Positions 7,891 through 37,963 of a stretch of 38,988 nucleotides of DNA are shown here, piece by piece. Numbering within the stretch: position 1 is the first letter of the stretch; every line of letters begins with the position of its first letter. The stretch spans positions 1 through 38,988 of the forward strand of contig REBP01000227.1 of assembly GCA_007692665.1 (NCBI GenBank). Direction: 5' to 3'. The translations under genes and the position numbers were made by a program. Source of the stretch: Gemmatimonadales bacterium (GTDB lineage: Bacteria; Gemmatimonadota; Gemmatimonadetes; Longimicrobiales; Gaopeijiaceae). Under the pieces are notes generated by a model that was not told the origin of the DNA, did no database searches, and saw only the letters and a program-made list of their open reading frames with translations.

Positions 7891-9243
7891 TCATTCATGA
7901 CGAAGGGCCTCGACCGGGGCCATGCGAGCGGCCCGAAGCGCGGGGAAGAGACCGAAGAGCATGCCGGTGATGGCAGCGGCGGCGAGGGAGACGGCCACGG
8001 CCCACAGCGGAATCGACGCGGGAACCGGCGTCAGACGGGCCACGAGCGCCGCGAAGCCCCCTCCGAGGAGGAGGCCGGTGGCACCTCCCAGCAGGGTCAG
8101 GACGCCGGCTTCCACGAGGAACTGCCAGAGAATTTCCCCCCGGGTGGCCCCCAGCGCCTTCCGGATCCCGATCTCCCGCGTCCGTTCGGTCACGGAGATG
8201 AGCATCATCCCCACCACCCCGACCCCGCCCACCAGGAGCCCCACCGACGACAGCGCGATCATGACGATGAAGAAGACCCCGGTGAAGCGGTCGAAGATTT
8301 CGAGAAGCTGGGTGGACCGCACGATGGAAAAGTTGTTGGGTTCACCCGGGGGGAGCCCCCGAACCGTGCGGAGCGCCGCGATGACCGCGTCCTCCACCTC
8401 GCCCTGGTCCCGTGCCTCCGAGGGCACGACCACCAGTTCGTTCACGCTGGGAGAGGCCTTGAACCGGCGTATGGCCGTGCTCTGGGGAACGATGGCCTGG
8501 AAGGCGGAGTTGTCCGAGAAGGGGTTCTCCTGGGGCTCGAAGACGCCGATCACCGTCACGGGAAGACCCCCGGACGGCCCGGCCCGGATGTGCATTCTCG
8601 CACCCGTTGCCGGCCCCTCTCCCAGCAGTTCCTCCGCCAGCCGGCGCGAGATGATGACAACGGTGCGGGCGTCGATGAACTCGGCGTCCACGAAGTCCCG
8701 GCCCTCCAGGAGCTCTGCGCCCCGGGGGGTGGCCCACCCCGGGCCTTCCCCCGTGGTCTGGACCCCCTGGACCTCGACGCTTCCCATCCTGAAGGTGGCG
8801 CCGCCGGCCTCGCCGCGGGGGTCCCTGATGGGGTAGGAGACGAGGATGTCCTCCACACCGTCGACGCGCCCCAGGCGATCCGCCTCCGCGAGGGTCAGCA
8901 TGGGACGGCGAAGCCAGGCCGGGGTGCTGCCGTCCCCCACGAACTGGATGTCGTCGGGATCCATGCGCATGACCATGAAGTTCCGCGGCCCTGCAGCCTC
9001 GATCCCCTCCTGGATGGAGCCCCGGATCCCGGTGATGAGCCCCGCCATCAGGACCACGACACAGACGCCGATTCCCACGCCCAGGACCGTCAGTCCCGAC
9101 CGGAAGGGGTTGGCCCGGATCGACTCCATGGCGATCCGCACGCCTTCCCTGGCTCCGAAGAGAAATCGCAGGAACACCCGGGTTCGGGACATGCGGGGCG
9201 GGGGGCCGCCGGGAGCGGGGGTGCTCCGTCGGCGTTCATTCAT
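7891..9243 (-). CDS. MacB/FtsX-type ABC transporter permease (second of pair)
   Basis: Protein of about 450 residues with the MacB topology: an N-terminal transmembrane helix (about 50-72), a large periplasmic MacB core domain, and three C-terminal helices. The FtsX cytoplasmic coupling segment RTREIGIRKALGAT and the end PVEALRHE are conserved. Such permeases do not move substrate through the membrane but transmit ATPase motion to a periplasmic adaptor and outer-membrane channel. ATG 9243 overlaps the stop of the preceding permease gene (ATGAATGA), a sign of translational coupling; a later ATG at 9192 (MSRTRVF) is also possible. No nucleotide-binding domain is fused and no ATPase gene is adjacent. 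The paralogue next to it suggests a heterodimer. Confidence 0.88.
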   Translation of the reverse strand: MNERRRSTPAPGGPPPRMSRTRVFLRFLFGAREGVRIAMESIRANPFRSGLTVLGVGIGVCVVVLMAGLITGIRGSIQEGIEAAGPRNFMVMRMDPDDIQFVGDGSTPAWLRRPMLTLAEADRLGRVDGVEDILVSYPIRDPRGEAGGATFRMGSVEVQGVQTTGEGPGWATPRGAELLEGRDFVDAEFIDARTVVIISRRLAEELLGEGPATGARMHIRAGPSGGLPVTVIGVFEPQENPFSDNSAFQAIVPQSTAIRRFKASPSVNELVVVPSEARDQGEVEDAVIAALRTVRGLPPGEPNNFSIVRSTQLLEIFDRFTGVFFIVMIALSSVGLLVGGVGVVGMMLISVTERTREIGIRKALGATRGEILWQFLVEAGVLTLLGGATGLLLGGGFAALVARLTPVPASIPLWAVAVSLAAAAITGMLFGLFPALRAARMAPVEALRHE

Positions 9244-10477
9244 GGCGAAGCGCCACGACGGGATCCAGGGCCGACGCGCGGATCGCCGGATAGACACCCG
9301 CAGCAACCCCCACGGTCATCCCGAGCAGGACGCTCAGTGCCACCCACTGGGGCGCCACCGCTGCCGGCAGCGGGGTGAACGCCCGCACGGCCCCCGCGAG
9401 CCCGATGCCCACCGCGACGCCGATGACGGCGCCGGCGGCCGACAGCGTCGTGGCTTCCACGAGAAACTGCCCGACAATGTCCTTCCGGCGCGCGCCCAGG
9501 GCCTTCCGGATTCCGATTTCCCGGGTGCGCTCCATCACCGAGACGAGCATGATGTTCATGATGACGATGCCGCCCACCACGAGAGAGATGCCGACGAGCC
9601 CGGGAAGGGCCACGAAGAGGATCGTGGAGATCCGGTCCCAGAAGGCCAGGGACGATTCGGCGGTCTCGAGCTCGAAGTTGTTGGCTTCGGCGGGGCGAAG
9701 CCGCCGGTGGACTCGAAGCGCGGCCTCCGCGTCCATCATGGCGACCGGCAGGTCCCCGGGGTTGTCGACCTGGATGATGATGTTCCCCACCGCGCCCCGC
9801 TCCGGAAGGATGCGACCGGCCCGGGATCGCTCGGGGATGAGGACCCGGCTGTTCAGGGAGATCCCGAGAATCGATCCCTGGTCCTCCAGAACGCCCACCA
9901 CACGGTAGGGAAATCCCCGGATGCGCACGCGCTCGCCCAGCGCTCCGCCATCGGGAAAGAGCGCCTCCGCCACGCTCAGCCCGAGGATGGCCACCGGTAC
10001 GCCCCGACCGGCTTCCTGCGAGGAAAACGGGCGTCCTTCCTCCACACGGAGGGTCCGGATCTCCAGGACCTCCTCCGACATCGCCGTGAGCTGGATCTGG
10101 CTGGCGGTGAGCCCCGCATCGGTGCGGACGTCGGTGGTACTCGAGGTTTCCACACCCACGCGGCCGGGGACAGTAAGTCCGCGGCGGATGGATTCGGCGT
10201 CGCTGATCGTCGCGCGGGGGCGCCGGGCCAGCTCCCGGGCCTGCTGCGCGGAAAAGCTCACCTGGACCGACGGTGTCCGCCGCACCTGGACCGTGTTCAT
10301 TCCGAAGACTTCCTGGGCGAAGTCCTCCTGGATGTAGCGATCCATGCCCTCCACGACGCTCACCACCACGATGAGAAACATGACGCCGATGATGACGCCG
10401 AGGAGGCTGAAGGCGCTCTTCAGCTTCTCCTGACGCAGCTGCATCAGCGCGAGTCGGATTCCCTCGTGGAAGTGCAT
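9236..10477 (-). CDS. MacB/FtsX-type ABC transporter permease (first of pair)
   Basis: A 413-residue permease with a short cytoplasmic N-terminus (MHFHEGIRLALMQLRQEKLKSA in outline), one helix (about 22-45), the periplasmic MacB core domain (about 50-280), and three C-terminal helices from about 285. The coupling-helix motif ERTREIGIRKALGARRKDI and the end DPVVALRHE are diagnostic of the FtsX/MacB superfamily. It lies 71 bases downstream of the MacA-type adaptor and overlaps the second permease gene by 8 bases. Together with the adaptor it would form the membrane part of a MacAB-like exporter or mechanotransmission complex for lipids, peptides or envelope components. The required ATPase is missing from this cluster and must come from elsewhere if the complex is active. 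Confidence 0.88.
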   Translation of the reverse strand: MHFHEGIRLALMQLRQEKLKSAFSLLGVIIGVMFLIVVVSVVEGMDRYIQEDFAQEVFGMNTVQVRRTPSVQVSFSAQQARELARRPRATISDAESIRRGLTVPGRVGVETSSTTDVRTDAGLTASQIQLTAMSEEVLEIRTLRVEEGRPFSSQEAGRGVPVAILGLSVAEALFPDGGALGERVRIRGFPYRVVGVLEDQGSILGISLNSRVLIPERSRAGRILPERGAVGNIIIQVDNPGDLPVAMMDAEAALRVHRRLRPAEANNFELETAESSLAFWDRISTILFVALPGLVGISLVVGGIVIMNIMLVSVMERTREIGIRKALGARRKDIVGQFLVEATTLSAAGAVIGVAVGIGLAGAVRAFTPLPAAVAPQWVALSVLLGMTVGVAAGVYPAIRASALDPVVALRHE

Positions 10478-10548: not shown

Positions 10549-11826
10549 TCAGCGCGGCCTCGGCCTGCCGGATGCCTCCACCGTGACCGCCGCCCCGTCG
10601 GAGAGTTCCTGGATGCGCTGGTACGGCCCGCTCACCACCACATCTCCCGGAGAGAGTCCGGAGACGATCTCGAAGTGCTCCTCGCCCGTGATGCCGAGTT
10701 CCACGGGGGTCCAGTGGGCTCGCCCGTCGCGGACCACGAACACCCCTTCCTGGCGTCGACTCGCGGCGGCGGATCTCGCGGCCGAGGAGCGGGGGTTCCC
10801 CGTGGCGTCCCCGGGGGCAGCGGCTGTCCGCACCAGCGCGGAATCCTCGCGCACGGTGACGGCGATGATGGGAACGGAGAGGACGGACGGTCGCCGGTCC
10901 ACGATGATGTCGGCGGTGGCGGAGAGATCCGGGCGGAGGGCCTCGGGGGGATCCAGGAGGGTGAGGACGACCTCGAAGTCCACCGAGGTCCGGGACTGTC
11001 CCTGGGCAGGCTGAATCGCCGAATTGCCGATGCGGGAAACCCGGCCTGCGAACGGCTGGCCCGGGAACGCATCGATCTCGACGACGGCCGAATCTCCCAG
11101 CGAGATGCGGGGAACATCGGTCTCGTCCACCGTGAGGACCGCCTCGATCACCGAGAGGTCGCTGACCGTGAGCAGGAGACTCCCGGGATTGTTCATCGTT
11201 CCGATGACCACGGTCTCCCCCTCCTCGATGTTCAGGCGGGTGACGCGCCCGGAGATGGGCGAGACGATCGTGGTCCGGGAACGCTGTTCCTCGGACTCCT
11301 CGAGCTGGGCGCGGGTCTGGGCGGCGCCGAATTCGGCGGATTCCAGCGTGGACTCCTGGATCTGGAGCCGGGTCCGCGCCTCCTCCAGCGCCTGCAGGCT
11401 CACCAGGTTGGGATCCCGCTGGCTCAGGTTCAGCAGCCGATCGAGGTCGCGCCGGGCCTGCTCGAGGTTGGCAAGGGCCTGGGAGACCTGCGCCTGGGAC
11501 TGGGAGAGAGCGGCCCGGGCCCGGGCGACCTGGGCCTCCGACGTGGTAGGGTCGATCCGCAGCAGGAGAACTCCCCGCTCGACCTCGTCGCCCTCCTCCA
11601 CGTTCAGCTCCACCACCCGGCCCATGACGTCGGAGGAGATGTTTACCTGGCGGCGGGGCCGAATGCTTCCGGTTGCCGTGATGGTGGCCGCCAGGTCACG
11701 GCTCTCCGCGACCTCGGTCCGCACCTCCACCGCCCGGTCTCCGGCGCCCCGCACAGCGAGCCAGACCCCCACGCCGAGAAGGACCACGATGCCCAGCCCG
11801 ATCCAGATCCTTCGATTTCCCGGCAT
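10549..11826 (-). CDS. MacA-type periplasmic adaptor (HlyD/RND membrane fusion protein family)
   Basis: The 425-residue product has an N-terminal membrane anchor (about 7-26). The biotinyl-lipoyl-like half motif GRVVELNVEEGDEVERG is near residue 70. A long alpha-helical hairpin rich in Ala, Gln, Leu and Arg spans about 95-185. The second lipoyl half SPISGRVTRLNIEEGETV, beta-barrel and membrane-proximal domains follow. This order is typical of adaptors that bridge an inner-membrane transporter and a TolC-like channel. Position before two MacB/FtsX permeases makes MacA the best comparison. An insertion rich in Ala, Arg and Ser (about residues 335-360, near RSSAARSAAASRR) interrupts the beta-barrel/membrane-proximal junction. 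The substrate cannot be inferred. Confidence 0.88.
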   Translation of the reverse strand: MPGNRRIWIGLGIVVLLGVGVWLAVRGAGDRAVEVRTEVAESRDLAATITATGSIRPRRQVNISSDVMGRVVELNVEEGDEVERGVLLLRIDPTTSEAQVARARAALSQSQAQVSQALANLEQARRDLDRLLNLSQRDPNLVSLQALEEARTRLQIQESTLESAEFGAAQTRAQLEESEEQRSRTTIVSPISGRVTRLNIEEGETVVIGTMNNPGSLLLTVSDLSVIEAVLTVDETDVPRISLGDSAVVEIDAFPGQPFAGRVSRIGNSAIQPAQGQSRTSVDFEVVLTLLDPPEALRPDLSATADIIVDRRPSVLSVPIIAVTVREDSALVRTAAAPGDATGNPRSSAARSAAASRRQEGVFVVRDGRAHWTPVELGITGEEHFEIVSGLSPGDVVVSGPYQRIQELSDGAAVTVEASGRPRPR

Positions 11827-11991: not shown

Positions 11992-12708
11992 TCAGGGCGC
12001 GCGCCGGCGGATCGCGGTGAATCCGCGGTCCGGATCCTCGACCCGGAGGACCTGTCCGTCGGGGGCGACCCACAGATTCCGGACACGGCCGTCGCCCTCG
12101 AGACGCAGGTGGCGGCCCTGGGTGGACCCTTCCACGAGGGCCACCGAGGTGGAGGCCGACACGGTCGTGACCCTCAGTTCGAACTGACGGCCCTCCCGGG
12201 GCGAGATCACGGGGATCGTCGCTTCTCCGTTCACCAGTCGAGCCGCCACGAAGTAGTACTGGTGCGCCACGCCGGGGTCGAGGAGGATGGTTCCGGAGGC
12301 GGCGCGGTATTCCCGTTCCCGCTCGCCCCGCTCGGAGCGGACCCGGCTCAGGTAGCGGCCGGGACCCAGTTCGATGGTGACCTCCTCCTGGGTGGCACCC
12401 GACACCTTGAGCTGGTAGCCCGAAACCGCCATGTCCCCCCCCGAGGTCTGGAGGAGCGGAACCATGCTGGTGTTCCCCTCGGGGACCCTCAGCTGGATCT
12501 CGGCGGTTGCGATGACCTGCAGGGCCGCGCCGGAACCGGTTCGCCGGATCGCGAACTCCTCCGTTCCGACGTCCGTGCCGTTGGACAGGATTCTGAAGGT
12601 CCCCTGGTCCACGGGAACGCTCTGTGCGACCAGGGCTTCCGGAGAGGGGAGGACAAGGAGAAGTCCCAGGGCCAGAACGGGACCGGATGCGAAGCGGGAA
12701 GGGCTCAT
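11992..12708 (-). CDS. Exported protein of unknown function
   Basis: The 238-residue product starts with a clear Sec signal peptide (basic MSPSRFASG, hydrophobic core, likely cleavage after LVAQ-type Ala-Gln near residue 29). The mature part is predicted mainly beta: repeated alternating strands such as QVIATAEIQLRVPE, YQLKVSGATQEEVTIELG and FELRVTTVSASTSVALVE. There are no cysteines and no catalytic motif that I recognise. It could be a lipocalin-like or beta-sandwich periplasmic protein. It is the first gene of the minus-strand run that continues with the MacA-type adaptor (165 bases downstream), so an accessory role in that export system is possible but unproven. The short upstream region shared with the giant kinase holds a palindrome and tandem repeat. 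I do not recognise the family. Confidence 0.65.
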   Translation of the reverse strand: MSPSRFASGPVLALGLLLVLPSPEALVAQSVPVDQGTFRILSNGTDVGTEEFAIRRTGSGAALQVIATAEIQLRVPEGNTSMVPLLQTSGGDMAVSGYQLKVSGATQEEVTIELGPGRYLSRVRSERGEREREYRAASGTILLDPGVAHQYYFVAARLVNGEATIPVISPREGRQFELRVTTVSASTSVALVEGSTQGRHLRLEGDGRVRNLWVAPDGQVLRVEDPDRGFTAIRRRAP

Positions 12709-12822: not shown

Positions 12823-12836
12823 GTACTGTACAGTAC
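12823..12836. promoter_or_regulatory. 14-bp palindrome built from three phased GTAC blocks, candidate operator
   Basis: GTACTGTACAGTAC is a perfect palindrome. It consists of three GTAC tetramers starting at 12823, 12828 and 12833, one every five bases, and also contains the overlapping inverted repeat TGTAC-A-GTACA (12828-12838 region). In DNA this GC-rich it stands out as AT-rich and symmetrical. It sits between the divergent exported-protein gene (12708) and the giant kinase (start near 12960), so it could control either or both. No regulator gene is next to it. Confidence 0.5.
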
Positions 12837-12959: not shown

Positions 12960-15900
12960 GTGATTCCCCTGCCTCCCGCCGCGCCACTCCTCCTCGGAGG
13001 TGCCTCCTTCGTGGCGCTCTGGGTCGGAACCGGAAACGCCTGGCTCCTTGTCGCGGCTGCCACCTGTCTCCTGGGTTCGGCCGTGCTCCGGCGTCCGGAC
13101 GAGGTCCCCGTTCAACGGTGGACGCTCCTTGCTCTCGGACTGGCGGTCATCGCCGGCGGCGCGGCAGAGTTCCACACGACCCGGATTTCGGCCACCTGGG
13201 ACGACCGGGCCCGGCTCCGCGAGGCGCAGGTCCGTGACCAGCTCTCCCAGGACCTCGATGCCCTGCTTCTCGCGGGGGAGGGTGCGGTCGCGCGGCTCCT
13301 GGCGCTGTACGATCCCGGTCTGCGGGCGCCGCGGGCGGTCCTTTCCCAGGATCTCCTGACCGACGGGGTCGACGCGGTGGCGATCTTCGGGCCGGGAGGT
13401 GAGCTGCTCGCGTGGGAGGGCGGACACCAGGGCCCGGTCCCCCGGAATGCCCGCCTCGGGCTGTCCCCCTACATCTATGCCGAGTCCGCCCTGTTCGGGT
13501 ACCTGTACGTGACCCGCCCGCTCCCGGAAGGGACGGGGACGGCGGTGGCGGTCAGCCTCCTCAGGGCCGACCTCCCCGCGACGCTGGAGGACGCCTCGGC
13601 AGACTTCGTTTCGCGCTTCCTGGCCCGTTCCGGCGCACGGATCCAGGTGGGCCGGGAGGACCGGGTCGAGGGAGAGGTGGCGTGGGGGCTGACCTGGGAG
13701 AGGGAAGTCCTCTTCTCGGTCGCCGTCGTGCCGGCGTCGGAAGCCGAGGTGCGGAGTCGCGTGGAACTCCGATGGAGCTGGCTCGTGGCCCTTCTCCTCG
13801 CGGCCGTCTGGATCGGTGTTGCAAGGGGCATGCGGGGCGCACGGGGCGGCCGGATCCTTTCGGGTGCCGGGCTGGTGCTCATCCTCCTGGGTCTCCCCCT
13901 GGGCCGGCTCTCCGGCAACACCCGGCTCTTCTCTCCGGCGGACCTCTACGTCCCCCTGCCCCTCACCCTGACCCTCGGGGACCTGCTCGTCCTCGCCGCT
14001 GCCGGCGTGCTGCTCCTGGGGTTCGCCTCCCCCTTTCGCCTTCCCCGCCCCCCCCGCATCCCGGCGGCGCTGGCCGCGGTCGGCGGGATCCTGCTCGCCG
14101 CGCTTCTGCTGGGCCTGTTCCGGCAGGGAGCCTCGCGGGACCTGCTCTCGGGCCCGGAACTCCTGTGGTCCCTCTACCACGGGGCCGCCTTCCTTTCCGT
14201 ATCGCTCGTGGTCGCCCTCGCGATCCAGGCGGGACGCGGGGCCCACGGCAACACGCGGGTGCGCTGGGTGGTCGCCGCGTCCGTGCTGGCCTGCGTCCTC
14301 GGGGTGGTGGCAGCCTGGCTGGTCCGCACGGAAGCCGCCTTCCCGGTGTGGATGATCCTTCCGTGGTTCCTCCCTCTCCTGGCGCTGATCCGGGCCTTCG
14401 GCGTGGAGGAGTCGTGGGGAGGATCCATGCTCCGGTGGGTGGGGGTCGGCGTGGTCAGTGCGACCCTCGTGCTGCCCTGGGCATGGGGGAGCCGTGTGGA
14501 GGCCCGCATCGCGGGAGCGGAGGACCGCATCGAGCGCCTGGGCACCCGTCCGGACCCCTTCCTGGAGTTCCTTCTCCTTCGCACCGGCGAGGAGGCCCGA
14601 GCGCTTTCGCTCTCCGGACGGAACCCGGTGGAGGTCCTCTACGGTGCGTGGGCCGGGAGCGGACTGGCACGGGAGGGCGTCCCGGTCTGGCTCACCTGGT
14701 GGTCTCCGGACGGGTTCGCCCAGGAGGAACTCCGCATCGGCGTCGCCACGCCGAGGCCGCAGATCCCGGCCGACCTGCGCATGGCGGCGCTCATGGAGGG
14801 AGACGTCCGCCTCGTCCGATCCGACCAGGCGGAGACCCACTACGTCGTTGCCGCGCCTCTCGCCCAGGGGGCCACCCTCACGGCCGTGGTCCCGCCCCGG
14901 CGGGGGTTCGCCGGTGACTCGCCGCTCGGTCCGCTCTTCTCGCCGGCCCGCTTCGACCCGGATCCCGTGTCGCTGATCCCCCTGCTGCCGGAAGAGGCCC
15001 TGGTTCCCACCGCCCCCGGCGTGGCCGGGACCCCGACGACGGAGGCCATCCGGTGGACCCTCACGCCGGAAGGGTGGCGGGGAGAGACCGCCCTCGCCTT
15101 TCCGGACCAGATCTACCTGGCCCAGTATCATGTGGCCCTCCCGCGGCCGCTTCTCGTGCTCGCGAGGGGCACACTCCTCCTCATCGGTTCCGTGGGCCTG
15201 CTCCTCCTCCTCTGGACCGGAGGGCGACGGCTCGCCGCTCCCACCCGTCTCCCGTGGAAGCGGGGTGCGGCCTCCATGACATCGTTCCGGGGGCGGGTCA
15301 CCCTCGCGCTGTTCGGGTTCTTTCTCCTCCCCACCATTCTCTTCGGGATGCTGGCGTACCGGACCCTCTCCAGCGCATCGGTCCGCACGGCGGAAACCCT
15401 CGCGGCCCGGGCTGCGGAAGATGCCGCGGCGGGGTTTGCGGACACGGGCGGTGCCATGGATCTGCTGGCGGCCCGGGTCGGCTCGGACCTCCTGCTCTAC
15501 GAAGGGGGGCAGCTGGTGGGGGGCTCCCAGCGGGAACTCGTGGAACTCGGGCTCTACCAGGGGTGGCTGCCCCCGGCAGTTCACCGGACGATGACGGGGG
15601 GATCGGAACTGCTCACGACGACCATCGCCACGCTGGGCGGGTGGGATTACGTGGTCGCCTACCGCCGCATCCCCGGCGGACGCGTGCTCGCGGCCCCGGC
15701 GGCGCTCCAGGCCGGTGCGACCGCGGTTCGCCAGCGCGAGGTTGCGGATCTGCTGGCCTTCACGCTGGTGCTGGGGGCCGGGCTGTCCGTCCTTCTGGCT
15801 CTGCTGGTGGGGAGGGCGCTGGCCCGCCCGATCCAGACCCTCCAGGTCGCATCGGAGCGCGTCGGGTCCGGCAACATGGGGGTCCATCTCCCTTCCGATC

Positions 15901-17102
15901 GGACCGACGAGTTCGGCGCCGTGTTCGAGGCCTTCAACCGGATGGTGGACCGCCTGGCCAGAACGCGCCGCGCCCTCGTGCGGAGTTCCCGGCGAACCCG
16001 GGCCATCGTGGAGGAGGTGGCAACGGGGGTGATCGCACTGGATCCGCAGGGGAGGGTGACGCTCGCCAACCCCCGGGCGGAAGCCCTCCTGGGGAGCCGT
16101 CTCCCACGCAGCCAGTCCATCCGGGAGGTGGGAGCCGAGGGCACCGGGCGTCGGGAAGTGGGGCGGTGGGTGACCGAATACCTCCGCGACGGCGTCGCCG
16201 AGGCCTCGGCGGAGTTCACGCTGGAGGGCCGCCGGATCCGATTTCGGGTGCGCCGGATCTCGGGGGGCGGGTCGCCCTCGGGTGCCGTGATCGCCCTCGA
16301 GGATGTGACGGATGAACTGAGAACCGAGCGAATTCTCGCGTGGGGCGAGATGGCGCAGCAGGTCGCCCACGAGGTCAAGAACCCGCTGACGCCGATCAAG
16401 CTCGGGATCCAGCACATCCGGCGGGCCTGGGTGGACCGGAGCCCGGACTACGATGCGATCCTCGACCGGAACGTCACCGCCATCCTGGGAGAGATCGACC
16501 GCCTGGCGGCCATCTCCACCTCGTTCTCCCGGTTCGGTGCTCCGGGCCCGGTGGCGCAGGGGCCCCTGGACGTCGTGGACGTGAATGAAGTCGTCGCGGA
16601 GGTCATGGTGCTGTACGCTGCCGGAAACGGCGTTCTTCGTTTCGAGGCGTCTCTCGATCCCGACCTGCCGGCCGTGTGGTCCCGATCGGACGAACTCAAG
16701 GAGGTGCTCGTGAATCTCCTCGAGAACGCCCGGGCCGCCCTCCCCGAGGGAGGAAGGGTGGAGGTCCTCGGAGGGGTCGAAGGGGACGGGGTTTGCATCC
16801 GGGTTGTCGACGACGGGGTGGGGATCCCGGAGGACCTGGTTGCACGCGTCTTCGAGCCCCATTTCTCCACCCGGAGCTCGGGTTCCGGGCTTGGACTCGC
16901 CATCGTTCGCCGCCTGGTGGAATCGTGGGGGGGGCGCGTCCATGCCGACAGCGAGGAGGGGAAGGGGACCACAATCCAGCTCTTCCTGCGCCGGTCGGAT
17001 GACGCCGATGCGGCGGACCCCCGGGCCGAAGAGCCCGGAGAGACGCCCACTTCGGCATGGGAAGTGTCCGGGGGGGGTGCCGGTTCGGGTCCTTCGTCCT
17101 AA
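12960..17102 (+). CDS. Giant membrane sensor histidine kinase, NtrY-like core
   Basis: About 1380 residues from GTG 12960, far above the 700-750 of NtrY. Order by eye: two N-terminal helices (about 8-60); an extracytoplasmic segment; about eight helices between 270 and 510; a second extracytoplasmic segment (511-725); helices near 731-756 and 779-803; a third extracytoplasmic domain; a helix at 930-950; HAMP (about 950-1005); PAS (about 1010-1100); then the kinase core. The phospho-acceptor is H1137 in AHEVKNPLTPIK, the N box has N1256, G1 is DDGVGIP (about 1284-1290), and G2 is GSGLGLAIV. The HEVKNPLTPIK string is typical of NtrY. The start is uncertain: the frame is open to 12624, but that extension crosses the tandem repeat. 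No response regulator is adjacent; an NtrX-like regulator lies at 36602. The core call is firm and the ligand unknown. Confidence 0.88.
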   Translation: MIPLPPAAPLLLGGASFVALWVGTGNAWLLVAAATCLLGSAVLRRPDEVPVQRWTLLALGLAVIAGGAAEFHTTRISATWDDRARLREAQVRDQLSQDLDALLLAGEGAVARLLALYDPGLRAPRAVLSQDLLTDGVDAVAIFGPGGELLAWEGGHQGPVPRNARLGLSPYIYAESALFGYLYVTRPLPEGTGTAVAVSLLRADLPATLEDASADFVSRFLARSGARIQVGREDRVEGEVAWGLTWEREVLFSVAVVPASEAEVRSRVELRWSWLVALLLAAVWIGVARGMRGARGGRILSGAGLVLILLGLPLGRLSGNTRLFSPADLYVPLPLTLTLGDLLVLAAAGVLLLGFASPFRLPRPPRIPAALAAVGGILLAALLLGLFRQGASRDLLSGPELLWSLYHGAAFLSVSLVVALAIQAGRGAHGNTRVRWVVAASVLACVLGVVAAWLVRTEAAFPVWMILPWFLPLLALIRAFGVEESWGGSMLRWVGVGVVSATLVLPWAWGSRVEARIAGAEDRIERLGTRPDPFLEFLLLRTGEEARALSLSGRNPVEVLYGAWAGSGLAREGVPVWLTWWSPDGFAQEELRIGVATPRPQIPADLRMAALMEGDVRLVRSDQAETHYVVAAPLAQGATLTAVVPPRRGFAGDSPLGPLFSPARFDPDPVSLIPLLPEEALVPTAPGVAGTPTTEAIRWTLTPEGWRGETALAFPDQIYLAQYHVALPRPLLVLARGTLLLIGSVGLLLLLWTGGRRLAAPTRLPWKRGAASMTSFRGRVTLALFGFFLLPTILFGMLAYRTLSSASVRTAETLAARAAEDAAAGFADTGGAMDLLAARVGSDLLLYEGGQLVGGSQRELVELGLYQGWLPPAVHRTMTGGSELLTTTIATLGGWDYVVAYRRIPGGRVLAAPAALQAGATAVRQREVADLLAFTLVLGAGLSVLLALLVGRALARPIQTLQVASERVGSGNMGVHLPSDRTDEFGAVFEAFNRMVDRLARTRRALVRSSRRTRAIVEEVATGVIALDPQGRVTLANPRAEALLGSRLPRSQSIREVGAEGTGRREVGRWVTEYLRDGVAEASAEFTLEGRRIRFRVRRISGGGSPSGAVIALEDVTDELRTERILAWGEMAQQVAHEVKNPLTPIKLGIQHIRRAWVDRSPDYDAILDRNVTAILGEIDRLAAISTSFSRFGAPGPVAQGPLDVVDVNEVVAEVMVLYAAGNGVLRFEASLDPDLPAVWSRSDELKEVLVNLLENARAALPEGGRVEVLGGVEGDGVCIRVVDDGVGIPEDLVARVFEPHFSTRSSGSGLGLAIVRRLVESWGGRVHADSEEGKGTTIQLFLRRSDDADAADPRAEEPGETPTSAWEVSGGGAGSGPSS

Positions 17103-17135: not shown

Positions 17136-17789
17136 ATGCTTTCTTTCCAGCGCGAAGCCATCGGAGGGAGTTCCGCGGCTCATCCCCCGGAGGAACCGCC
17201 GTTGTCGAGGACCCTCAGTGAACGCGAACTCTGTGACTGGCTGGAAGCCCAGGCGCCGGAACTGGCGCGCCGGTGGAGCCTGGAACTCCGGGCGAGGTCG
17301 GGAAGGGATGAAGGGGAGCTCGAACCGCTCAGGGATGCGATCCTGGCCGGGATCGTCAGGTTCCTGTCCCCCGCCGTGGGCCCATGGCGCGACCAGGTGG
17401 AGCCGCTCCTGCAGCAGGTGGCGGCCCTCTACGGCAACGTGGCCTGTCTGAGGGGCCTCGCCGCCGGCGACGTGGTCGAGGAGATCCAGCTCCTGCGCGA
17501 GATCCTCTTCCGGTTCCTGTTCCGGGAGTCCTCGCCGGAGGAGCCGGCAAACGGTGTCGGCATTCGCGAGCTTCTCCGCCTGAGCCGGGTGGTCGATCAC
17601 GTCGTGACCCATGCCAACGTGGGCCACATCGATGGTCTCTTCTTCAATCTTCTCCACGGGAGCGGCGTGACGAGTCTCCCGGGAGAGGAGAAGATCGGCG
17701 AACTCGCCTCCGAGCTCTCCCAGCTGCAGGAGGAGCTGGACCAGATGCGTCCAGTCGTCGCCCCCCGTTCCCAGCCCCCCCGGAACTGA
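17136..17789 (+). CDS. Helical protein possibly related to RsbRD N-terminal domains
   Basis: The 217-residue product is cytoplasmic, without signal or membrane segments, and predicted nearly all helical. Features include WLEAQAPELARRWSLELR near the start, the central LAAGDVVEEIQLLREILFRFLF, and LSRVVDHVVTHANVGHIDGLFFNLL. A Glu-rich terminal coiled segment (about 188-206) and a Pro/Arg tail follow. This pattern loosely resembles the RsbRD N-terminal domain found in stressosome-type proteins and at the front of some histidine kinases, but I cannot confirm the family by eye. It follows the giant kinase after 33 bases on the same strand, so it may be co-expressed and act as a signalling partner. 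No STAS, kinase or DNA-binding domain is present. An alternative is a simple conserved protein of unknown function. Confidence 0.6.
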   Translation: MLSFQREAIGGSSAAHPPEEPPLSRTLSERELCDWLEAQAPELARRWSLELRARSGRDEGELEPLRDAILAGIVRFLSPAVGPWRDQVEPLLQQVAALYGNVACLRGLAAGDVVEEIQLLREILFRFLFRESSPEEPANGVGIRELLRLSRVVDHVVTHANVGHIDGLFFNLLHGSGVTSLPGEEKIGELASELSQLQEELDQMRPVVAPRSQPPRN

Positions 17790-22434: not shown

Positions 22435-22935
22435 CGCAGACCTCGGACGAGGAGGGTGGAGGATGCGTTTCCGTGGCCGACGAGGCCGGCGGGGATCGGA
22501 CCCGGGATGTCGGGGACCCGCGAACGGCTGGGGAGTTCCCGGGGCCTGGGGCGGAAATCGTGATGCACCGCTGCGGATCATCGACCTGCAGGCTGGGTAC
22601 GCCCCAACGGATCGAATGCCCGAAGGGCAGCGGTCCTTCCCGGGTGCGCGACGAGCTCGCACGATCACGGGAAACCTAACACTTCACCCGGCTGCCGCGT
22701 CTTCACCTTTGACGGGTGGCAACCCGGATGCCATTGGCATGGCCCGGGATGCTTGACGCGTCATCTGTTCGTGGGACCGTGCTCCGGTTTTTCCCTGCAG
22801 CGCGCGATCCCCTCACATCCGAATGACCCGAGATTCCGTGATCGTCGGGCTAGGCGTTCGAGAGGTCCTGACGTGGTACCAGTGACAGACACCGACGGCT
22901 GCATCCGGGAAATCCCGGGAGTCCACCGGCGCCCC
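22435..22935. promoter_or_regulatory. 501-base divergent intergenic region between pntAA and the efflux operon
   Basis: No supported gene lies here; the open frames are upstream extensions of pntAA and tolC with atypical composition. It should hold promoters for both divergent operons. Two inverted repeats stand out: ATGCCA-T-TGGCAT at 22728-22740 and CCGGGA-AA-TCCCGG at 22905-22918, the latter 17 bases before the tolC start. A TTGACG at 22709-22714 could act as a -35 for the plus strand, placing the first repeat over the -10 position, but no good -10 is seen. Confidence 0.5.
22728..22740. promoter_or_regulatory. Inverted repeat ATGCCA-T-TGGCAT, candidate operator
   Basis: Perfect 6-bp arms around a single central T. 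It lies about 290 bases upstream of pntAA and 195 bases upstream of the tolC-like gene. A regulator for it is not identifiable in the window. Confidence 0.3.
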
Positions 22936-24426
22936 ATGATGCGGGGGCTGGTGCTCCTCGCGGGCGTCCTCCTCGCCCTTCCGGCTTCCGCGCAGGTCTC
23001 CGTGGAATCCGGCCCGGCACAGCTATCTCTCCAGGAAGCCATCCGTCTGGCCGAGCGCAACAATCCGGACTTCAGGATCCAGGCCACGCAGATGGAGACC
23101 GCCGACCGGCAGATCCGGGCGGCGCGGGGGGAGTTCCTTCCCTCGATGAATGTCTCGAACTCCTACGGATACCAGGCGTCCGGAGAGCGGAGGGCGGGCT
23201 CGGTGGTCCTTGGAACCCAGCCCCAGTTCTACAATTCCTCCTATTCGGTCAACGTGTCCTATTCCATGAACGGAGCCACGCTTCTCCGTCCTGGCCAGGC
23301 GCGGACGGAGGCCGAGGCGGCGGAGGCGCGCGTGATGGGTGCCGCCCAGGGACTCAGGGCCGAGGTCACGAATGCCTACCTCTCGGTTCTCCAGGCCGAT
23401 GCCGAGGTGGAGCAGGCCCTGACGGCGCTGGAACGCACCGGGCTCACCGTGCGGCAGGCCACCGCCCAGGTGGAAGTCGGCGCAGCAACGCCTCTCGACA
23501 TCCGACGGGCCGAGGTGCAGGAGGGGCAGGCCGAGGTCCAGGTCATCCAGACCCGGAACCAGGCCCGGTCCACGCGCCTCGAGCTGGCGCGGCTTCTCGG
23601 CGTCAGCCTTTCCGAAGAAGTCGAGCTCACGACGTCGTTCGACGAGGACGCCCTCGCCCTGGATGCCGACGAGCTGCTTGTCCGGGCGCTGGAGGCGAAC
23701 CCGGTGGTACGGGCGACTCGCTTCGGGGTCGAGGCGGCCAGGGCAGGCGCGCGCTCGGCGCGCACCGCCTACTTCCCGAACCTCTCGCTTTCCGCCGGCG
23801 TCTCCGGATCCGTCTTCGTGGCCGGCGACCTCGACCCCCTGATCTCCCAGGAACTGACGTCGCAGGCGGGCCGGTTTTCCAGTTGCCAGGAGGAGAACCG
23901 GTTGCGGGAGCTTCTCGGGGATCCGCCGCGGGACTGTGCGGCCCTGAACCCGGCGCTCCCCGGCGTGGAGTCGGATATCCGGAACCGGATCGAAGCCGAC
24001 AACGACGGGTTTCCCTTCAGCTACCGCCGCCAGCCGCTCAGCCTCTCCATGTCGCTCTCCGTCCCGGTCTTTACCGGCGGCCAGCGTCGCCGGAGCGTGG
24101 AGCAGGCGGAGCTCGAGGCTTCGAACGCGATGGAGCAGCTTCGCGCCGAGGAACTACGGCTGCGAACTCAGGTAACCACCGCCGTTCGTTCCGTGGAGAC
24201 ATCGAGACAGATCGTGCAGCTCCAGGAACGGATCCGTGCCACGTCGGCGGAGGAGCTTCGCCTGGCCCAGGAGCGGTTCCGGCTCGGCCTCGCGTCCTCC
24301 ATCGAAGTCGCCGACGCGCAGGCAAGTCTTTCCCAGGTCGAGCGGGACGAGATCACGGCGCGGTACGAGCTTCAGCGCTCCCTTGCGGCACTGGAATCCC
24401 TGATCGGTGGACCGATCCGGCCCTGA
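22936..24426 (+). CDS. TolC-family outer-membrane efflux channel
   Basis: The 496-residue product begins with a signal peptide (MMRGLVLLAGVLLALPASAQ; cleavage after ASA). Two repeats of the outer-membrane efflux protein fold follow: long Ala/Glu/Arg/Gln-rich coiled helices (for example around QATAQVEVGAATPLDIRRAEVQ and the later VETSRQIVQLQERI) separated by beta segments such as FPFSYRRQPLSLSMSLSVPVF. The motif AxPL/SSIEVxDAQxxL near each helix end is typical of TolC channels. The two adjacent ATG codons 22936 and 22939 are the only starts that leave an intact signal peptide. It is followed after 64 bases by an RND adaptor and two RND pumps, so it is almost certainly their exit duct. A Cys pair in the central insertion (SCQEEN and RDCAA, about 40 bp apart) might form a disulfide. 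Confidence 0.93.
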   Translation: MMRGLVLLAGVLLALPASAQVSVESGPAQLSLQEAIRLAERNNPDFRIQATQMETADRQIRAARGEFLPSMNVSNSYGYQASGERRAGSVVLGTQPQFYNSSYSVNVSYSMNGATLLRPGQARTEAEAAEARVMGAAQGLRAEVTNAYLSVLQADAEVEQALTALERTGLTVRQATAQVEVGAATPLDIRRAEVQEGQAEVQVIQTRNQARSTRLELARLLGVSLSEEVELTTSFDEDALALDADELLVRALEANPVVRATRFGVEAARAGARSARTAYFPNLSLSAGVSGSVFVAGDLDPLISQELTSQAGRFSSCQEENRLRELLGDPPRDCAALNPALPGVESDIRNRIEADNDGFPFSYRRQPLSLSMSLSVPVFTGGQRRRSVEQAELEASNAMEQLRAEELRLRTQVTTAVRSVETSRQIVQLQERIRATSAEELRLAQERFRLGLASSIEVADAQASLSQVERDEITARYELQRSLAALESLIGGPIRP

Positions 24427-24490: not shown

Positions 24491-25651
24491 ATGAAGCGAT
24501 GGAACGGAAGGGTGCCCACCTGGTCCCGGACCCTGATGGCGGTGGCGGCCGTGGGTGGAACGATCCTTCTGGCATCGGGATGCGGGGGGGATGCGGAGTC
24601 GGGGGAAGCCATGGCACGTGCGCCGGGTGGTCCGGGAGGCGCCGGAGGTCCCCCGGGGCTCGCGGGAGGGCGGGCGACGCCCGTATCGGTCCGGGTCGTC
24701 GAATCCGGTGATCTCCAGGTGACCCTCCGGGCTTCGACGAACCTTCGCGCCAGGGAGCAGGTCGACGTGATCCCCAAGCAGGGAGGGCTCCTCGCACGGG
24801 TGCTGGTGGAGGAGGGCGCAAGGGTTTCCGCAGGACAGGAACTCGGAAGACTCGATGACGCCGAGTGGGTCCTCCAGGCCGAGCAGTCGGAGGCCCGGTC
24901 CCGGGCCGCGCTGGACGCCGTGGAGCGGGCACGGGCTCTCGCAGAGCTGGACCTGATTTCGCAGCAGGAGGTGGAACGGCTCGCGTCCGAGGCCCGGGTG
25001 GCGGAGGCCGAGGTCGGGCTGGCCCGCCTCCGGGTGGAAAACGCCGTGATTCGCGCGCCCTTCTCCGGCACGATCACCCATCGGTACGTCGAGCGCGGGC
25101 AGCAGGTGACGACGTCGGCGCCGGCCTTCGGCATCGCCGACCTGGACCGCCTCGAGGCCCAGATCGCGATTCCGGAGCGGGAGGCCGCCCGGATCCAGGT
25201 GGGCCAGATCGCTCGGGTCATCCTGCAGGAGGGCGCCGCCCCCGTCGCCACGGGCCGGGTGGAGCGTATCCGTCCGGTCGTCGACGCGGCCAGCGGAACC
25301 GTCCAGGTCACCGTGGCCGTGGCCGCCAATGCCGGTGAGGTGGCCCTGCGTCCCGGCCAGTTCGTGAACGTGGACGTCATCACCGAAACGCTCCAGGACC
25401 GGATCACCCTTCCCCGCACGGCCGTGCTCGTGGACGGTGCGGCGCCGCGGGTGTTCATCATCCAGCAGGACGTCGCCATCGAGCGCGAGGTCACGCTCGG
25501 GTATTCCCGGGGCGACCAGGTCGAGATCCAGACCGGGATCGAGCCCGGCGACACGGTGGTGGTGGTAGGGCAGGACAACCTGCGTCCCATGGCTGCCGTC
25601 CGGGTCATGCAGCGCAATGGGCAGCCCGTGACCGGAGGAGAGCAGCAGTGA
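24491..25651 (+). CDS. RND efflux periplasmic adaptor, probable lipoprotein
   Basis: The 386-residue membrane fusion protein has a short signal ending LLASGC, with C31 as the likely lipidated cysteine. A Gly/Ala/Pro-rich linker follows, then lipoyl half motif KQGGLLARVLVEEGARVSAGQ, a rather short alpha-helical hairpin (about 115-180), the second lipoyl half IRAPFSGTITHRYVERGQQV, beta-barrel, and membrane-proximal domain ending in QDNLRPMAAVRVM. ATG 24491 has GAGG about nine bases upstream. The stop TGA overlaps the GTG start of the first RND gene (GTGA), so adaptor and pump are translationally coupled. By gene order it corresponds to MdtA. It is distinct from the MacA-type adaptor at 10549. 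Confidence 0.93.
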   Translation: MKRWNGRVPTWSRTLMAVAAVGGTILLASGCGGDAESGEAMARAPGGPGGAGGPPGLAGGRATPVSVRVVESGDLQVTLRASTNLRAREQVDVIPKQGGLLARVLVEEGARVSAGQELGRLDDAEWVLQAEQSEARSRAALDAVERARALAELDLISQQEVERLASEARVAEAEVGLARLRVENAVIRAPFSGTITHRYVERGQQVTTSAPAFGIADLDRLEAQIAIPEREAARIQVGQIARVILQEGAAPVATGRVERIRPVVDAASGTVQVTVAVAANAGEVALRPGQFVNVDVITETLQDRITLPRTAVLVDGAAPRVFIIQQDVAIEREVTLGYSRGDQVEIQTGIEPGDTVVVVGQDNLRPMAAVRVMQRNGQPVTGGEQQ

Positions 25652-28600: not shown

Positions 28601-28935
28601 TGCGCAGGCAGGAGGGGATGCCGCTGGACGAGGCGGTCGTGGAGGCCGGCCGGATCCGGCTGCGCCCCATCCTGATGTCGACGCTGACCACGATTCTGGG
28701 CCTGCTCCCCCTCGCCCTCATCCCCGGGGAGGGCGCGGAACTTCGTGTCCCTCTCGCCATACCGGTGATCGGGGGACTCATCGTTTCCACGCTGCTTACG
28801 CTCATCATCGTGCCCGTCCTGTACCGCATCTTCGAGGTCCGAGGGGAACGGGCTCGACTCGAGGCGATGGAGGGAGCCCCGGCGGGAGCCGGCGTGGTTC
28901 CGGCGGCCGGTGCGCCGGCTCCGGGGACCGCCTGA
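25648..28935 (+). CDS. RND efflux pump, inner-membrane transporter (first of tandem pair)
   Basis: The 1095-residue transporter has the duplicated RND layout: TM1, a large periplasmic porter/docking loop, TM2-6, TM7, second loop, TM8-12. RND strings include VDLLPDLSFPTISIETEYGGVGPREIENLI near the start in outline, IPISVIATFVLM, GMLVDSAIVVLES and GIVVNNAIVLVDFIN. GTG 25648 overlaps the adaptor stop, with GGAGG upstream. In TM4 the first relay aspartate (D408) is kept but the neighbouring position is Ser, and the TM10 position equivalent to AcrB K940 is Asn (N973). A cytoplasmic Gly/Arg/Lys-rich insertion of about 60 residues (about 492-555) joins the two halves and makes it longer than AcrB (1049). 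Multidrug or other hydrophobic substrates are likely; not a CusA-type metal pump, as no Met relay is evident. Confidence 0.93.
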   Translation: MKVVDFSVARPVAVSMAFIAVLVFGAVSFSRLQVDLLPDLSFPTISIETEYGGVGPREIENLISRPVEEAISVVQGVQQVTSRSRPGRSDITIQFRWGTDMDFAALDLRERLDLINLPPAAGRPTLARYDPSSEPVIRFALVADRALDPRLPGDRTELIALRWLAEEQVRRALEGVEGVAAVRVTGGLEEEILVEVDESRLAALGIPFAQVARRLESENINLAGGVLEEGDAQYVVRTVNEFTDVEEMLRVVVGSAGGEPILLLDVASVRRAARERETVTLVNGNEAVEISVLRESTANIVALSRLIRERIETVESDLPRGITTTLISDQATFIESAVGDVGKAAVFGGIFAMLVLLLFLRHLPTTLIVVTAIPISVIATFVLMFSRDITLNIMSLGGLALGIGMLVDSAIVVLESIARERDRGATPREAARKGTSVVGRAVVASTLTTVAVFLPIVFVEGIAGQLFGDQAWTVSFALLASLVVSLTLIPMLAGRGGGVQARTGAAGGGGGVHSPPTPGRIGEAVARGTGSVMRVGKSAGKGPGRVSNAFFDGFDNLYQRVENRYPKILAASIRRPWVIIGVCLLLLAGGGILLPRVGVSLVPELSQGELVVELEAAPGTSLVRMEQLARQAEAIIEAEFPEAIEIFTNVGVRGGAGTLGRTGERERHAATLLVRLDGLSRGEDRLAGRMTERLGDLPGLQIRVDRPRLFTVNAPVEVEVRGFDLRALSEVAGDVRDVMRAMPGVTGVEEERRQGTPEISIRFDRERLARLGLTVGDAAEAIQSRVRGAPATEFTERDRDLTVLVRALEEQRATLSDLANLRLDVPGGGSTALSAVADLGFQDGPAEIVRRGGSRVVLVEARPAGSDLAGVISRIETEVRSIPVPEGINIAVAGQSRDLQQSVESMQLALLLAVFLVYLVMASQFESFKLPGVILVSVPLALPGALAALWITGNSISVVALIGMVMLVGIVVNNAIVLVDFINVLRRQEGMPLDEAVVEAGRIRLRPILMSTLTTILGLLPLALIPGEGAELRVPLAIPVIGGLIVSTLLTLIIVPVLYRIFEVRGERARLEAMEGAPAGAGVVPAAGAPAPGTA

Positions 28936-35899: not shown

Positions 35900-36574
35900 A
35901 TGAACGGATGCCTGGGTGGGTGCATGGGCCGCATTCTCGCAGTCGTTCTCCTGGCTGGTCTCGTCTTCGCGGCCTGGAAATGGGGACCGGACCTGCTCGA
36001 GGGGGTTCGGTCCGGGTCCTTTCCGACGAGTGCCGTGGAATCGGAGTCACCGTCCGAGGCGCTGGCCGCCCGGGCCGAGGGAGAGCTTCAGGGGCTCCTC
36101 GACGGCCGGGAAGAGGTGGTGAGGCTCTCCGCGGCGGAACTGGAGAGTCTGCTGCTCTTCCGGTTTCCCATGAACTGGCCGGACGGGGTCTCTCACCCGT
36201 CGGTCCGGATGCGGGACGGGGAAATGGCGCTGGAGCTCCGCCTTGCCCGCGAGCGCATCCCCGCCCTCCCCGAGCTGGAAGGCATCCTCGATTTCCTCCC
36301 GGACACCGTCCCCGTTCAGCTCCGCGGTCGTGTTCTCGCCGTCGGAGGAGGGAACGCGGCCCTCCTGGTGCACCGGATCGATGCTTCCTCCATCCCCATT
36401 CCCCGGCGCTTCTTCCCCCGCATCCTCGAGAGTATCCGGGGCGGGGGCGCGCCTGCCGATCTTCCCCCCGAGGCCCTCTTCCTTCCCCTCCCCCCCGGGA
36501 TCGAATCCATCCGGGTCGAGGGGGACCACCTGGTGCTGACCCGCACGTCCTGCAACGGTGCCCTTCCGTGCTGA
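35900..36574 (+). CDS. Membrane-anchored or exported protein of unknown function
   Basis: The 224-residue product has a short N-terminal hydrophobic helix (about 11-25, RILAVVLLAGLVFAAW), likely an uncleaved anchor, then a hydrophilic domain outside the membrane. The domain begins with an Ala/Glu-rich helix (SEALAARAEGELQGLLDG) and the string VRLSAAELESLLLFRF. Beta-rich segments follow (MALELRLARERIP, VPVQLRGRVLAVGGGNAALLVHRI), then a Pro-rich end and two C-terminal cysteines. The overall pattern of an anchor plus lipid-transfer-like beta domain is only suggestive. ATG 35900 is 43 bases after thpR; an ATG at 35924 directly before the helix is an alternative. The NtrX-like regulator gene follows after 27 bases. 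I do not recognise the family. Confidence 0.65.
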   Translation: MNGCLGGCMGRILAVVLLAGLVFAAWKWGPDLLEGVRSGSFPTSAVESESPSEALAARAEGELQGLLDGREEVVRLSAAELESLLLFRFPMNWPDGVSHPSVRMRDGEMALELRLARERIPALPELEGILDFLPDTVPVQLRGRVLAVGGGNAALLVHRIDASSIPIPRRFFPRILESIRGGGAPADLPPEALFLPLPPGIESIRVEGDHLVLTRTSCNGALPC

Positions 36575-36601: not shown

Positions 36602-37963
36602 GTGGCGCGAATTCTCGTCGTTGACGACGAAGCCTCGGTGCGCAGTGTCCTGCGCCAGCTCTTCGCGTACGAGGGGCACACCGTGGAGGTCGCTGCCTCC
36701 GGGAGGGAGGCCCTCCGCATCCTCGCGGACCAGGGAGCCGATGCCGTATTCCTCGACGTGAAGATGCCGGGTGAGGATGGTCTCGATGCCCTGGCCGAGA
36801 TCCGGGAGCGGCACCCGGCGCTCCAGGTGGTGATGATCTCGGGTCACGGGACCATCGATACCGCGGTGGAGGCGACCCGGCGGGGGGCCTTCGATTTTCT
36901 CCAGAAGCCCCTGGACACGGACCGTCTCCTGGTCACGCTCCGGAACATGCTGGACCGGAAGGGTCTCGAGGAATCCGTGGAGGCCCTGCGGTCGGAGGTC
37001 GAGTCCCGGCACCGGATCGTCGGTCGCTCGCCGCTGATTCGCGGGGTCCTCGACCGCATCGAGAAGGTGGCCCCCACCGACGCGCGGGTCCTCATCACCG
37101 GTGAGAACGGAACGGGCAAGGAACTCGTGGCCCGGGCTCTCCACCGTCTCTCCCGGAGGAGCGACAAGGCGTTCGTGGAAGTGAACTGTGCGGCGATCCC
37201 CTCGGAACTCATCGAATCCGAACTCTTCGGGCACATGAAGGGGTCCTTCACCGGGGCGGTGCAGGATCGGGCCGGCACCTTCGAGCAGGCAGACGGCGGC
37301 ACGCTCTTTCTCGACGAGATCGGCGACATGTCGCTTGCGGCCCAGGCCAAGGTCCTCCGGGCCCTCGAGGAAGGAAAGGTGATGCGGGTCGGGGGTCAGA
37401 AGGTCCACGCGGTGGATGTGCGAATCATTGCCGCCACGAACAAGGACCTCTCGCTGGAGATCGAGGAAAACCGCTTCCGGGAAGACCTCTTCTACCGGCT
37501 GAACGTGGTCCCCATCGAGGTTCCGGCTCTTCGGGAGAGACGCGAGGACATTCCTCTGCTGGTCCGATATTTCGCCGACCAGATGGCCGCCCGGGAGCGC
37601 ATCCCGACGCGGACCTTCACGGAGGGGGCCGTAGCCCTCCTCGCCCAGCGCGACTGGCCCGGAAACGTGCGGGAACTGAGGAACACGGTGGAGCGCCTCC
37701 TGATCCTCGCGGCCGAAGACACCGTGACCGAGGCGGACGTCTCCCTCCTCACCTCCGGCGGGACCCAGTCCTCCGGGGTCGGCACGGAGATCATGAAGGC
37801 CGGAACGTTCCAGGATTTCCGGGACCAGGCGGAGCGGGCCTTCCTCCTCCAGCGGCTTCGGGATCACGACTGGAATGTGTCCGAGACGGCTCGGGCCATC
37901 GAGATGCCGCGGTCGAACCTCTACAAGCGAATCGAGCGGTTCGGCCTGACGCGCGAGGAATGA
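36602..37963 (+). CDS. Sigma-54-dependent response regulator, NtrX-like
   Basis: The 453-residue regulator starts at GTG 36602. The receiver domain (1-120) has the acidic pair in VVDDE, phospho-acceptor D52 in VFLDVKMPG, and K103-type lysine in FLQKPLDTDRL. The AAA+ sigma-54 activation domain (about 140-370) has Walker A GENGTGKE (about 167-174), the sigma-54 contact loop as GSFTGA (about 214-219; usual form GAFTGA), Walker B GGTLFLDEIGD, and WPGNVRELRN. A Fis-type helix-turn-helix (NVSETARAIEMPRSNLYKRI, about 425-444) closes the protein. The GHGTIDTAVEATRRGAFDFLQKPL pattern and GENGTGKE fit NtrX better than NtrC. No kinase is adjacent; the NtrY-like kinase core of the protein at 12960 is the obvious candidate partner. 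Its targets are unknown. Confidence 0.92.
   Translation: MARILVVDDEASVRSVLRQLFAYEGHTVEVAASGREALRILADQGADAVFLDVKMPGEDGLDALAEIRERHPALQVVMISGHGTIDTAVEATRRGAFDFLQKPLDTDRLLVTLRNMLDRKGLEESVEALRSEVESRHRIVGRSPLIRGVLDRIEKVAPTDARVLITGENGTGKELVARALHRLSRRSDKAFVEVNCAAIPSELIESELFGHMKGSFTGAVQDRAGTFEQADGGTLFLDEIGDMSLAAQAKVLRALEEGKVMRVGGQKVHAVDVRIIAATNKDLSLEIEENRFREDLFYRLNVVPIEVPALRERREDIPLLVRYFADQMAARERIPTRTFTEGAVALLAQRDWPGNVRELRNTVERLLILAAEDTVTEADVSLLTSGGTQSSGVGTEIMKAGTFQDFRDQAERAFLLQRLRDHDWNVSETARAIEMPRSNLYKRIERFGLTREE

Follow-up and report, generated by a model that had tools for sequence, protein, structure and literature searches.

A giant, sensor-expanded histidine kinase widely conserved in Gemmatimonadota and its proposed partner, an NtrC-family response regulator encoded at a distance

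The stretch of DNA analysed in this work (the window; 38,988 nucleotides of contig REBP01000227.1, GenBank assembly GCA_007692665.1, from a Gemmatimonadales bacterium) encodes a sensor histidine kinase of 1380 amino acids and, 19.5 kb downstream, an orphan response regulator of the NtrC family. Genes of a MacA/MacB-like exporter are located divergently to the kinase gene (Table 1). The original prediction, made from the sequence alone, concerned the kinase and missed both the regulator and the conserved exporter genes. No titles naming a histidine kinase or a two-component system in Gemmatimonadota were found in the open-licence literature, so signalling in this phylum looks little studied, and no description of the kinase architecture or of its regulator was found there either (titles and abstract starts). 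The kinase is real and widely conserved; we regard it as a relative of NtrYX that is split and has an enlarged sensor part, and it probably acts as the sensor of a split NtrYX-type system with the distant regulator as its partner.

Table 1 Features of the window (coordinates in nucleotides; residues refer to the kinase)
Feature	Coordinates	Strand	Remarks
Giant sensor histidine kinase	12960..17102	+	1380 aa from GTG at 12960
Extracytoplasmic domain 1, Cache/PDC-like fold	13212..13736	+	residues 85-259, AlphaFold2 and VIA-align
Eight-helix membrane module	13740..14483	+	residues 261-508, separate AlphaFold2 model
Extracytoplasmic domain 2	14541..15140	+	residues 528-727; ~530-649 Cache-like
Extracytoplasmic domain 3, single-Cache-like	15375..15710	+	residues 806-917
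HAMP	15804..15959	+	residues 949-1000, Pfam
PAS, matched part	15993..16115	+	PAS_8, residues 1012-1052, Pfam
HisKA with H1137, NtrY-type H-box	16341..16514	+	residues 1128-1185, Pfam
HATPase_c	16686..16994	+	residues 1243-1345, Pfam
Orphan NtrC-family (NtrX-like) response regulator, proposed partner	36602..37963	+	full NtrC-type architecture
Predicted periplasmic protein with a membrane anchor (by eye), its gene immediately preceding that of the regulator	35900..36574	+	possible accessory
DUF6134-like protein, exported judging by a signal peptide recognised by eye; divergent gene next to the kinase	11992..12708	-
MacA-like periplasmic adaptor	10549..11826	-
MacB-like permease (MacB_PCD and FtsX)	9236..10477	-
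Second MacB-like permease	7891..9306	-
Small protein without recognised domain, directly downstream of the kinase	17136..17789	+	family in 16/41 loci
TolC-like outer-membrane factor, downstream of the kinase	22753..24426	+

The kinase reading frame is uninterrupted between 12624 and 17102. By eye no Shine-Dalgarno sequence is evident upstream of the GTG at 12960, relatives start close to the same place, and the start codon is uncertain by some tens of codons. The HAMP, PAS, HisKA and HATPase domains follow each other ahead of the C terminus in the NtrY-like order, as originally described for a protein of about 1380 residues with H1137 and a complete ATPase domain; the HisKA match (22.7 bits) is slightly under the curated Pfam cut-off of 26.9. 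H1137 lies within the motif AHEVKNPLTPI (residues 1136-1146), and two partly overlapping sequence sets, both including the window, preserve the box HE[IVM][KR]NPLTP in 40/41 and 63/63 members. Across residues 1-948 Pfam gives zero matches, and a Pfam search of 27 N-terminal sequences, the window included, returned five families, each matching a single sequence (best E 0.0006, DUF5337). The kinase is known in this organism from a single draft contig, which would allow for an error of sequencing or assembly joining two adjacent genes, a possibility named in the original prediction; since full-length relatives with N termini 31-76% identical are present in many independent assemblies, including single-contig genomes, such an error is already refuted and retains practically no probability.

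The N-terminal part was modelled with AlphaFold2 (residues 12-1005, 61 sequences; pLDDT 87.7, pTM 0.85). The model comprises 14 transmembrane (TM) helices and three extracytoplasmic domains: three TM helices are followed by Cache-like domain 1 and by eight TM helices of which the eighth enters Cache-like domain 2; two more TM helices then precede Cache-like domain 3, and the last TM helix leads to HAMP. The "roughly a dozen" hydrophobic segments counted originally were thus near the mark if slightly too few, hydropathy averaged over the family giving 13 clear peaks with the first helix at the trimmed edge, and the at least three extracytoplasmic stretches and the eight-helix central module proposed at the same time are both recovered. 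The orientation is consistent with the charge distribution in the 61 sequences: Lys/Arg make up 12-24% of the seven cytoplasmic segments vs 1-10% of the seven outside segments, with segment limits taken from the model and the three residues before helix 1 devoid of Lys/Arg.

Foldseek found nothing at E below 0.001 for the whole kinase model. With VIA-align, for which a best Z of 7-8 is typical of models without a clear match, domain 1 aligned with the sensor domains of KinD and LuxQ (Z 10.4, 152 residues, rmsd 3.0) and domain 3 with 4zr7 (Z 9.9, 104 residues, rmsd 2.9) and with formate chemoreceptors (Z 9.5), so the predicted structures of both fit the Cache/PDC sensor fold. Domain 2 aligned with Tlp3 (Z 9.2 over 101 residues within 532-647), and also with PctA, PctB and PctC; the sole alignment spanning 517-727 (6iop) has an rmsd of 8.2. 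In predicted fold (domain 2 over part of its length) and in TM-flanked periplasmic placement the three domains resemble known Cache/PDC sensors (KinD, LuxQ, DctB, Tlp3, WalK), but here three of them, mutually dissimilar by profile and without a Pfam match, are found in one kinase. Their origin by internal duplication was considered and rejected, as no profile similarity was detected beyond shared overlap residues. The eight-helix module modelled alone (residues 257-513) reached pLDDT 93.5 and pTM 0.88, and the structure search gave it no convincing PDB relative: the best VIA-align Z is 6.6 over 60 residues, and the widest alignment near the top is to a chain of the Mrp complex (Z 5.9, 170 residues, rmsd 6.6). 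No fold family can be named for this modelled module, which may belong to a family outside the matches listed.

The architecture had been predicted to be a fusion; that it is an idiosyncratic one is not supported. When residues 1-949 were used as a query, matches, mostly single and sometimes in pieces, were found in 54 of 59 relatives, namely in every one of the 24 that belong to the order but not to the family (G035-G058) and in 30 of the 35 family members. In a sample of 200 Gemmatimonadota genomes, the listed ones all belonging to one class, the single-sequence search detected the kinase in 152 and a profile search added 13, which gives 165/200. The profile search covered 40 genomes, 37 of which came from the 48 scored as lacking the kinase, and its 15 matches correspond to the 13 kinases (some partial, in genomes that had previously appeared to have the regulator only), a remnant in genome G174 and a weak match of 57 positions in G033; all nine f7, both f8 and all three f9 genomes retested lacked the kinase by profile. 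The gene is usually single-copy and occurs in most other sampled families, not in f7. Its wide occurrence leaves no recent fusion visible. The survey of related genomes suggested originally had a double outcome, the architecture being widespread in the phylum and yet not found described. A scan of named-species genomes, the one search made beyond the phylum and limited to two peptide patterns, so that distant relatives elsewhere are possible, revealed 73 loci, of which 72 are titled Gemmatimonadota or its orders or genera and one Gammaproteobacteria. The last, a 4-kb contig (L164), encodes part of the kinase N terminus with 48% identity and is probably a misbinned Gemmatimonadota contig.

The strongest match to sigma-54 activators in the organism's own genome is the regulator gene downstream of the kinase. 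Its product carries the sigma-54 contact loop GSFTGA (59 of 61 sequences, GAFTGA in the other two) and the sigma-54 gene rpoN is present in the genome; with the loop kept, the regulator probably activates sigma-54 promoters. Besides the giant kinase no other kinase was found on this contig, which stops 1 kb past the regulator gene. The protein encoded directly upstream of the regulator belongs to family C10/C18, found in this position in 12 of 21 loci, and has no Pfam match, DUF4390 included. For some NtrYX systems a periplasmic third component, PlrP (DUF4390), is reported in an excerpt of PMC13001219. The window protein resembles PlrP in being small, periplasmic and apparently anchored in the membrane; its gene stands before that of the regulator instead of that of the kinase, and it lacks DUF4390, so the parallel is positional only. 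On the other side, convergent with the regulator gene, lies a gene for a Matrixin (M10) peptidase, lipoprotein-like by eye (38025-38819, minus strand).

The distribution of the regulator follows that of the kinase closely. Orthologues were found in 55 of the 59 relatives (52 at >=535 bits, three partial at 68-74% identity); kinase and regulator are absent from the same four genomes, and one (G016) has the regulator only. In the phylum sample 168/200 genomes have a regulator match at E 1e-118, a cut-off lying below the best paralogue scores that may admit a few paralogues. With the single-sequence kinase search both genes were scored in 148 genomes, the kinase only in 4, the regulator only in 20 and neither in 28 (Fisher p 3e-17, for counts which, to the disadvantage of the pairing, are not phylogenetically independent); after the profile search the numbers became 161, 4, 7 and 28. 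The pair is common to most sampled families of the class, usually in the same chromosomal order and non-adjacent. Both positions were listed for 137 genomes, 85 of which have the two genes on one contig: in 77 these lie within 40 kb (7-33 kb apart, median 15.6 kb), the regulator being downstream on the same strand in all 77, and in six further pairs the same arrangement extends over 44-77 kb. Unlike ntrY and ntrX, which adjoin each other, the genes are apart in all 85 pairs.

Such linkage might arise if the regulator gene were merely a member of a generally conserved block, with another response regulator as the true partner or with the kinase serving several. The organism has 16 sigma-54-activator matches above 200 bits, and the interval between the two genes also holds, in 19 of 21 loci, a gene with the Pfam domain Mg_chelatase that we take to be comM, accompanied by an aminotransferase-V gene in 7/21 and by what is presumably a ThpR-like gene in 10/21. 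We consider this alternative improbable on account of the genomes in which the pair has decayed. In G174 the kinase is reduced to residues 15-134, with a stop inside, beside the DUF6134-like gene, and the regulator gene carries a frameshift, whereas the ComM, transhydrogenase-type neighbour, adaptor, TolC-like and permease genes match near-full-length; an assembly error is a less likely cause of the frameshift because the kinase is also truncated, and the congener G034 carries both genes. G028 no longer has the kinase at its usual place between the neighbouring genes, and of the regulator a C-terminal piece of ~55 residues survives; the exporter genes and the 17136-type gene are retained, but a search of 19.9 kb of this genome did not reveal ComM, so a larger deletion that took the block is possible, a point that tells against the pairing. 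The DNA pattern for HE-x-[KR]NPLTP, which omits AAA lysine codons and was applied to a draft genome, occurs once in the organism's own genome, at the giant kinase; 11 other genomes contain it one to three times. That kinase and regulator decayed together in two genera is the best evidence short of biochemistry for their joint action, and comparative genomics makes their pairing appear well supported.

The proposed pair shares with the NtrY-NtrX family (NtrYX of S. meliloti and R. sphaeroides, PlrSR of Bordetella) the HAMP/HisKA/HATPase core, the H-box AHE[IV]KNPLTPI and a regulator of the NtrC family. The sequence AHEIKNPLTPI is present in the annotated NtrY of S. meliloti and in NtrY-like kinases encoded at loci of A. 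brasilense and Sphingomonas; the NtrB-type boxes beside those loci, AHEIKNPLSGI or GHEVKNPLSGI, are unlike that of the giant kinase. Five of the eight top plasmid-record matches to the kinase core (four Azospirillum, one Sphingomonas) adjoin a listed regulator match, and the best NCBIfam model for the regulator is NtrX (452 bits, below the equivalog cut-off of 600, so that it does not qualify as NtrX proper). The giant kinase differs from S. meliloti NtrY in length (1380 vs 771 residues) and from NtrYX systems in its 14 TM helices, its three Cache-like domains, the lack of an NtrY_N match and the non-adjacent regulator. The regulator keeps the GSFTGA loop, in contrast to S. meliloti NtrX, which has no loop of this type in sequence comparison; Caulobacter NtrX is also said to lack it in an excerpt of PMC10274813. 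In one relative (G005:C1, near 3086847-3088827) a second NtrY-type H-box adjoins an NtrC-type regulator 50% identical to that of the window, apparently an adjacent NtrYX-like pair.

Several observations weigh against the pairing or against a close kinship with NtrYX. The NtrY_N domain (PF19312), which scores 136 bits in S. meliloti NtrY and 266 bits in the Sphingomonas NtrY-like kinase, has no match in the window protein at E values up to 1 or in the 27 N-terminal sequences at values up to 0.5; the NtrY-like plasmid matches to the kinase core are only 28-29% identical; and the best NCBIfam model for the core is AtoS, its best solved relative ZraS. The original notion of an NtrY-type core fused to extra modules survives in respect of the H-box; it is not shown literally, because NtrY_N goes undetected, and from its sequence the core looks NtrYX-like, the missing NtrY_N match being the one feature that tells against membership in NtrY proper. 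The regulator scores 448 bits with the ntrC model, nearly as much as with NtrX, and 331 and 320 bits with S. meliloti NtrX and NtrC; two solved chains named NtrC family outscore the best chain of a nitrogen-assimilation regulator of NtrX length, and its own best plasmid-record matches are other NtrC-type proteins. With scores so nearly tied, the label NtrX-like expresses a weak lean that is not settled. Seven genomes have a regulator match without the kinase, three of which (f9) may be paralogues, and four have the kinase alone, one of these (G039) holding a partial regulator; in G123 and G231 the two genes lie 684 kb and 336 kb apart. Because the contig ends so soon beyond the regulator, a further kinase gene there is possible, and one of the 21 loci (L248) has another kinase/regulator-type pair near the regulator. 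Finally, no sigma-54 promoter was found near the kinase or the exporter: the window has one match to the -24/-12 site with two mismatches vs 2.9 expected, and among 58 upstream regions, the window included, matches with at most one mismatch occur in 3 loci (shuffle mean 0.6, maximum 3) and with at most two in 8 (shuffle mean 7.6).

The genes divergent to the kinase are conserved as well. In 41 loci (the window and 40 picked for family spread and contig size before their neighbours were viewed) the MacA-like gene was found in 37, the MacB-like in 35, the TolC-like in 34 and the DUF6134-like in 30; these counts are minimum values, as several contigs stop too soon and the DUF6134-like gene of G025 was missed in the locus count. 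The window has the MacAB-type combination of a MacB_PCD and FtsX permease with an adaptor. Its TolC-like gene lies downstream of the kinase, whereas in the 34 loci it belongs to the divergent cluster. Neither permease reading frame matches an ABC ATPase, and no gene of the ABC ATPase family F6, present in 19 of 41 related loci, was found clustered beside the permeases (7891-10477) in a search that covered part of the window reading frames. BceS is reportedly a kinase coupled with an exporter. For HssS an association with the exporter HrtBA is described in an excerpt of PMC11237747. As in such MacAB-TolC-type systems, MacB_PCD-FtsX permeases and an adaptor lie next to a kinase gene, mostly with a TolC-like gene, and this conservation (30-37 of 41 loci per gene) would suit a kinase dedicated to the divergent exporter by transporter-coupled sensing, the DUF6134-like protein perhaps serving as a periplasmic ligand carrier and the NtrX-like regulator being linked incidentally. 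We regard such a dedicated role as unlikely. The DUF6134-like gene does not track the kinase: it was detected in 14/17 genomes negative for both kinase and regulator vs 10/13 genomes with the kinase. The shared upstream region has no conspicuous sigma-54 site, and a dedicated role would not explain why kinase and regulator decayed together. Moreover, the adaptor, TolC-like and permease matches persist near-full-length in both G174 and G028, two genomes that lost the kinase, so that the exporter appears to be a neighbour and possible target of the kinase, not an obligate partner. As an operator candidate, a perfect 14-bp palindrome, GTACTGTACAGTAC, at 12823-12836 in the divergent intergenic region was examined and rejected, as none of the 58 other upstream regions contains it; a tandem 'catggaccggagcctcacccg' repeat adjoins it. 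Within what is usually the exporter cluster, the DUF6134-like gene of G174 (locus L262, 10865-12830) is separated from the TolC-like one by a different kinase-like stretch and a receiver-like stretch.

If the giant kinase and the distant regulator do form a pair, the three periplasmic Cache-like domains linked by 14 TM helices would signal through the relay of the last TM helix, HAMP and PAS, which would drive the HisKA/HATPase core. As its motifs suggest, the core would autophosphorylate on H1137 and most likely pass the phosphoryl group to D52 of the regulator. Judged from the topology of the sensor part and from the conservation of the divergent exporter genes, the condition sensed is most likely a state of the envelope, and one protein might combine several envelope signals. 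Envelope genes of R. sphaeroides are reported to be under NtrYX control in an excerpt of PMC7240162. A bolder proposal, which we hold to be doubtful though possible, would make the kinase a receptor of Gemmatimonadota that is class-wide and integrates envelope signals; its undescribed eight-helix module between the Cache domains, possibly transporter-like or lipid-sensing, would gate an NtrYX-type relay controlling envelope homeostasis and the divergent exporter via the regulator encoded elsewhere. The widely conserved kinase has an unusual sensor layout and a proposed partner that annotation based on adjacency would miss. Should the pairing be true, it would offer a testable route to envelope control in Gemmatimonadota and would mean that an NtrYX-type pair can stay coupled across a class, in fixed chromosomal order, without its genes being neighbours.

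Further downstream of the kinase, the plus strand of the window carries between 22753 and 32122 a row of genes for the TolC-like factor, an adaptor-like protein and two RND-type proteins (25648-28935 recognised by eye, 29018-32122 by Pfam).

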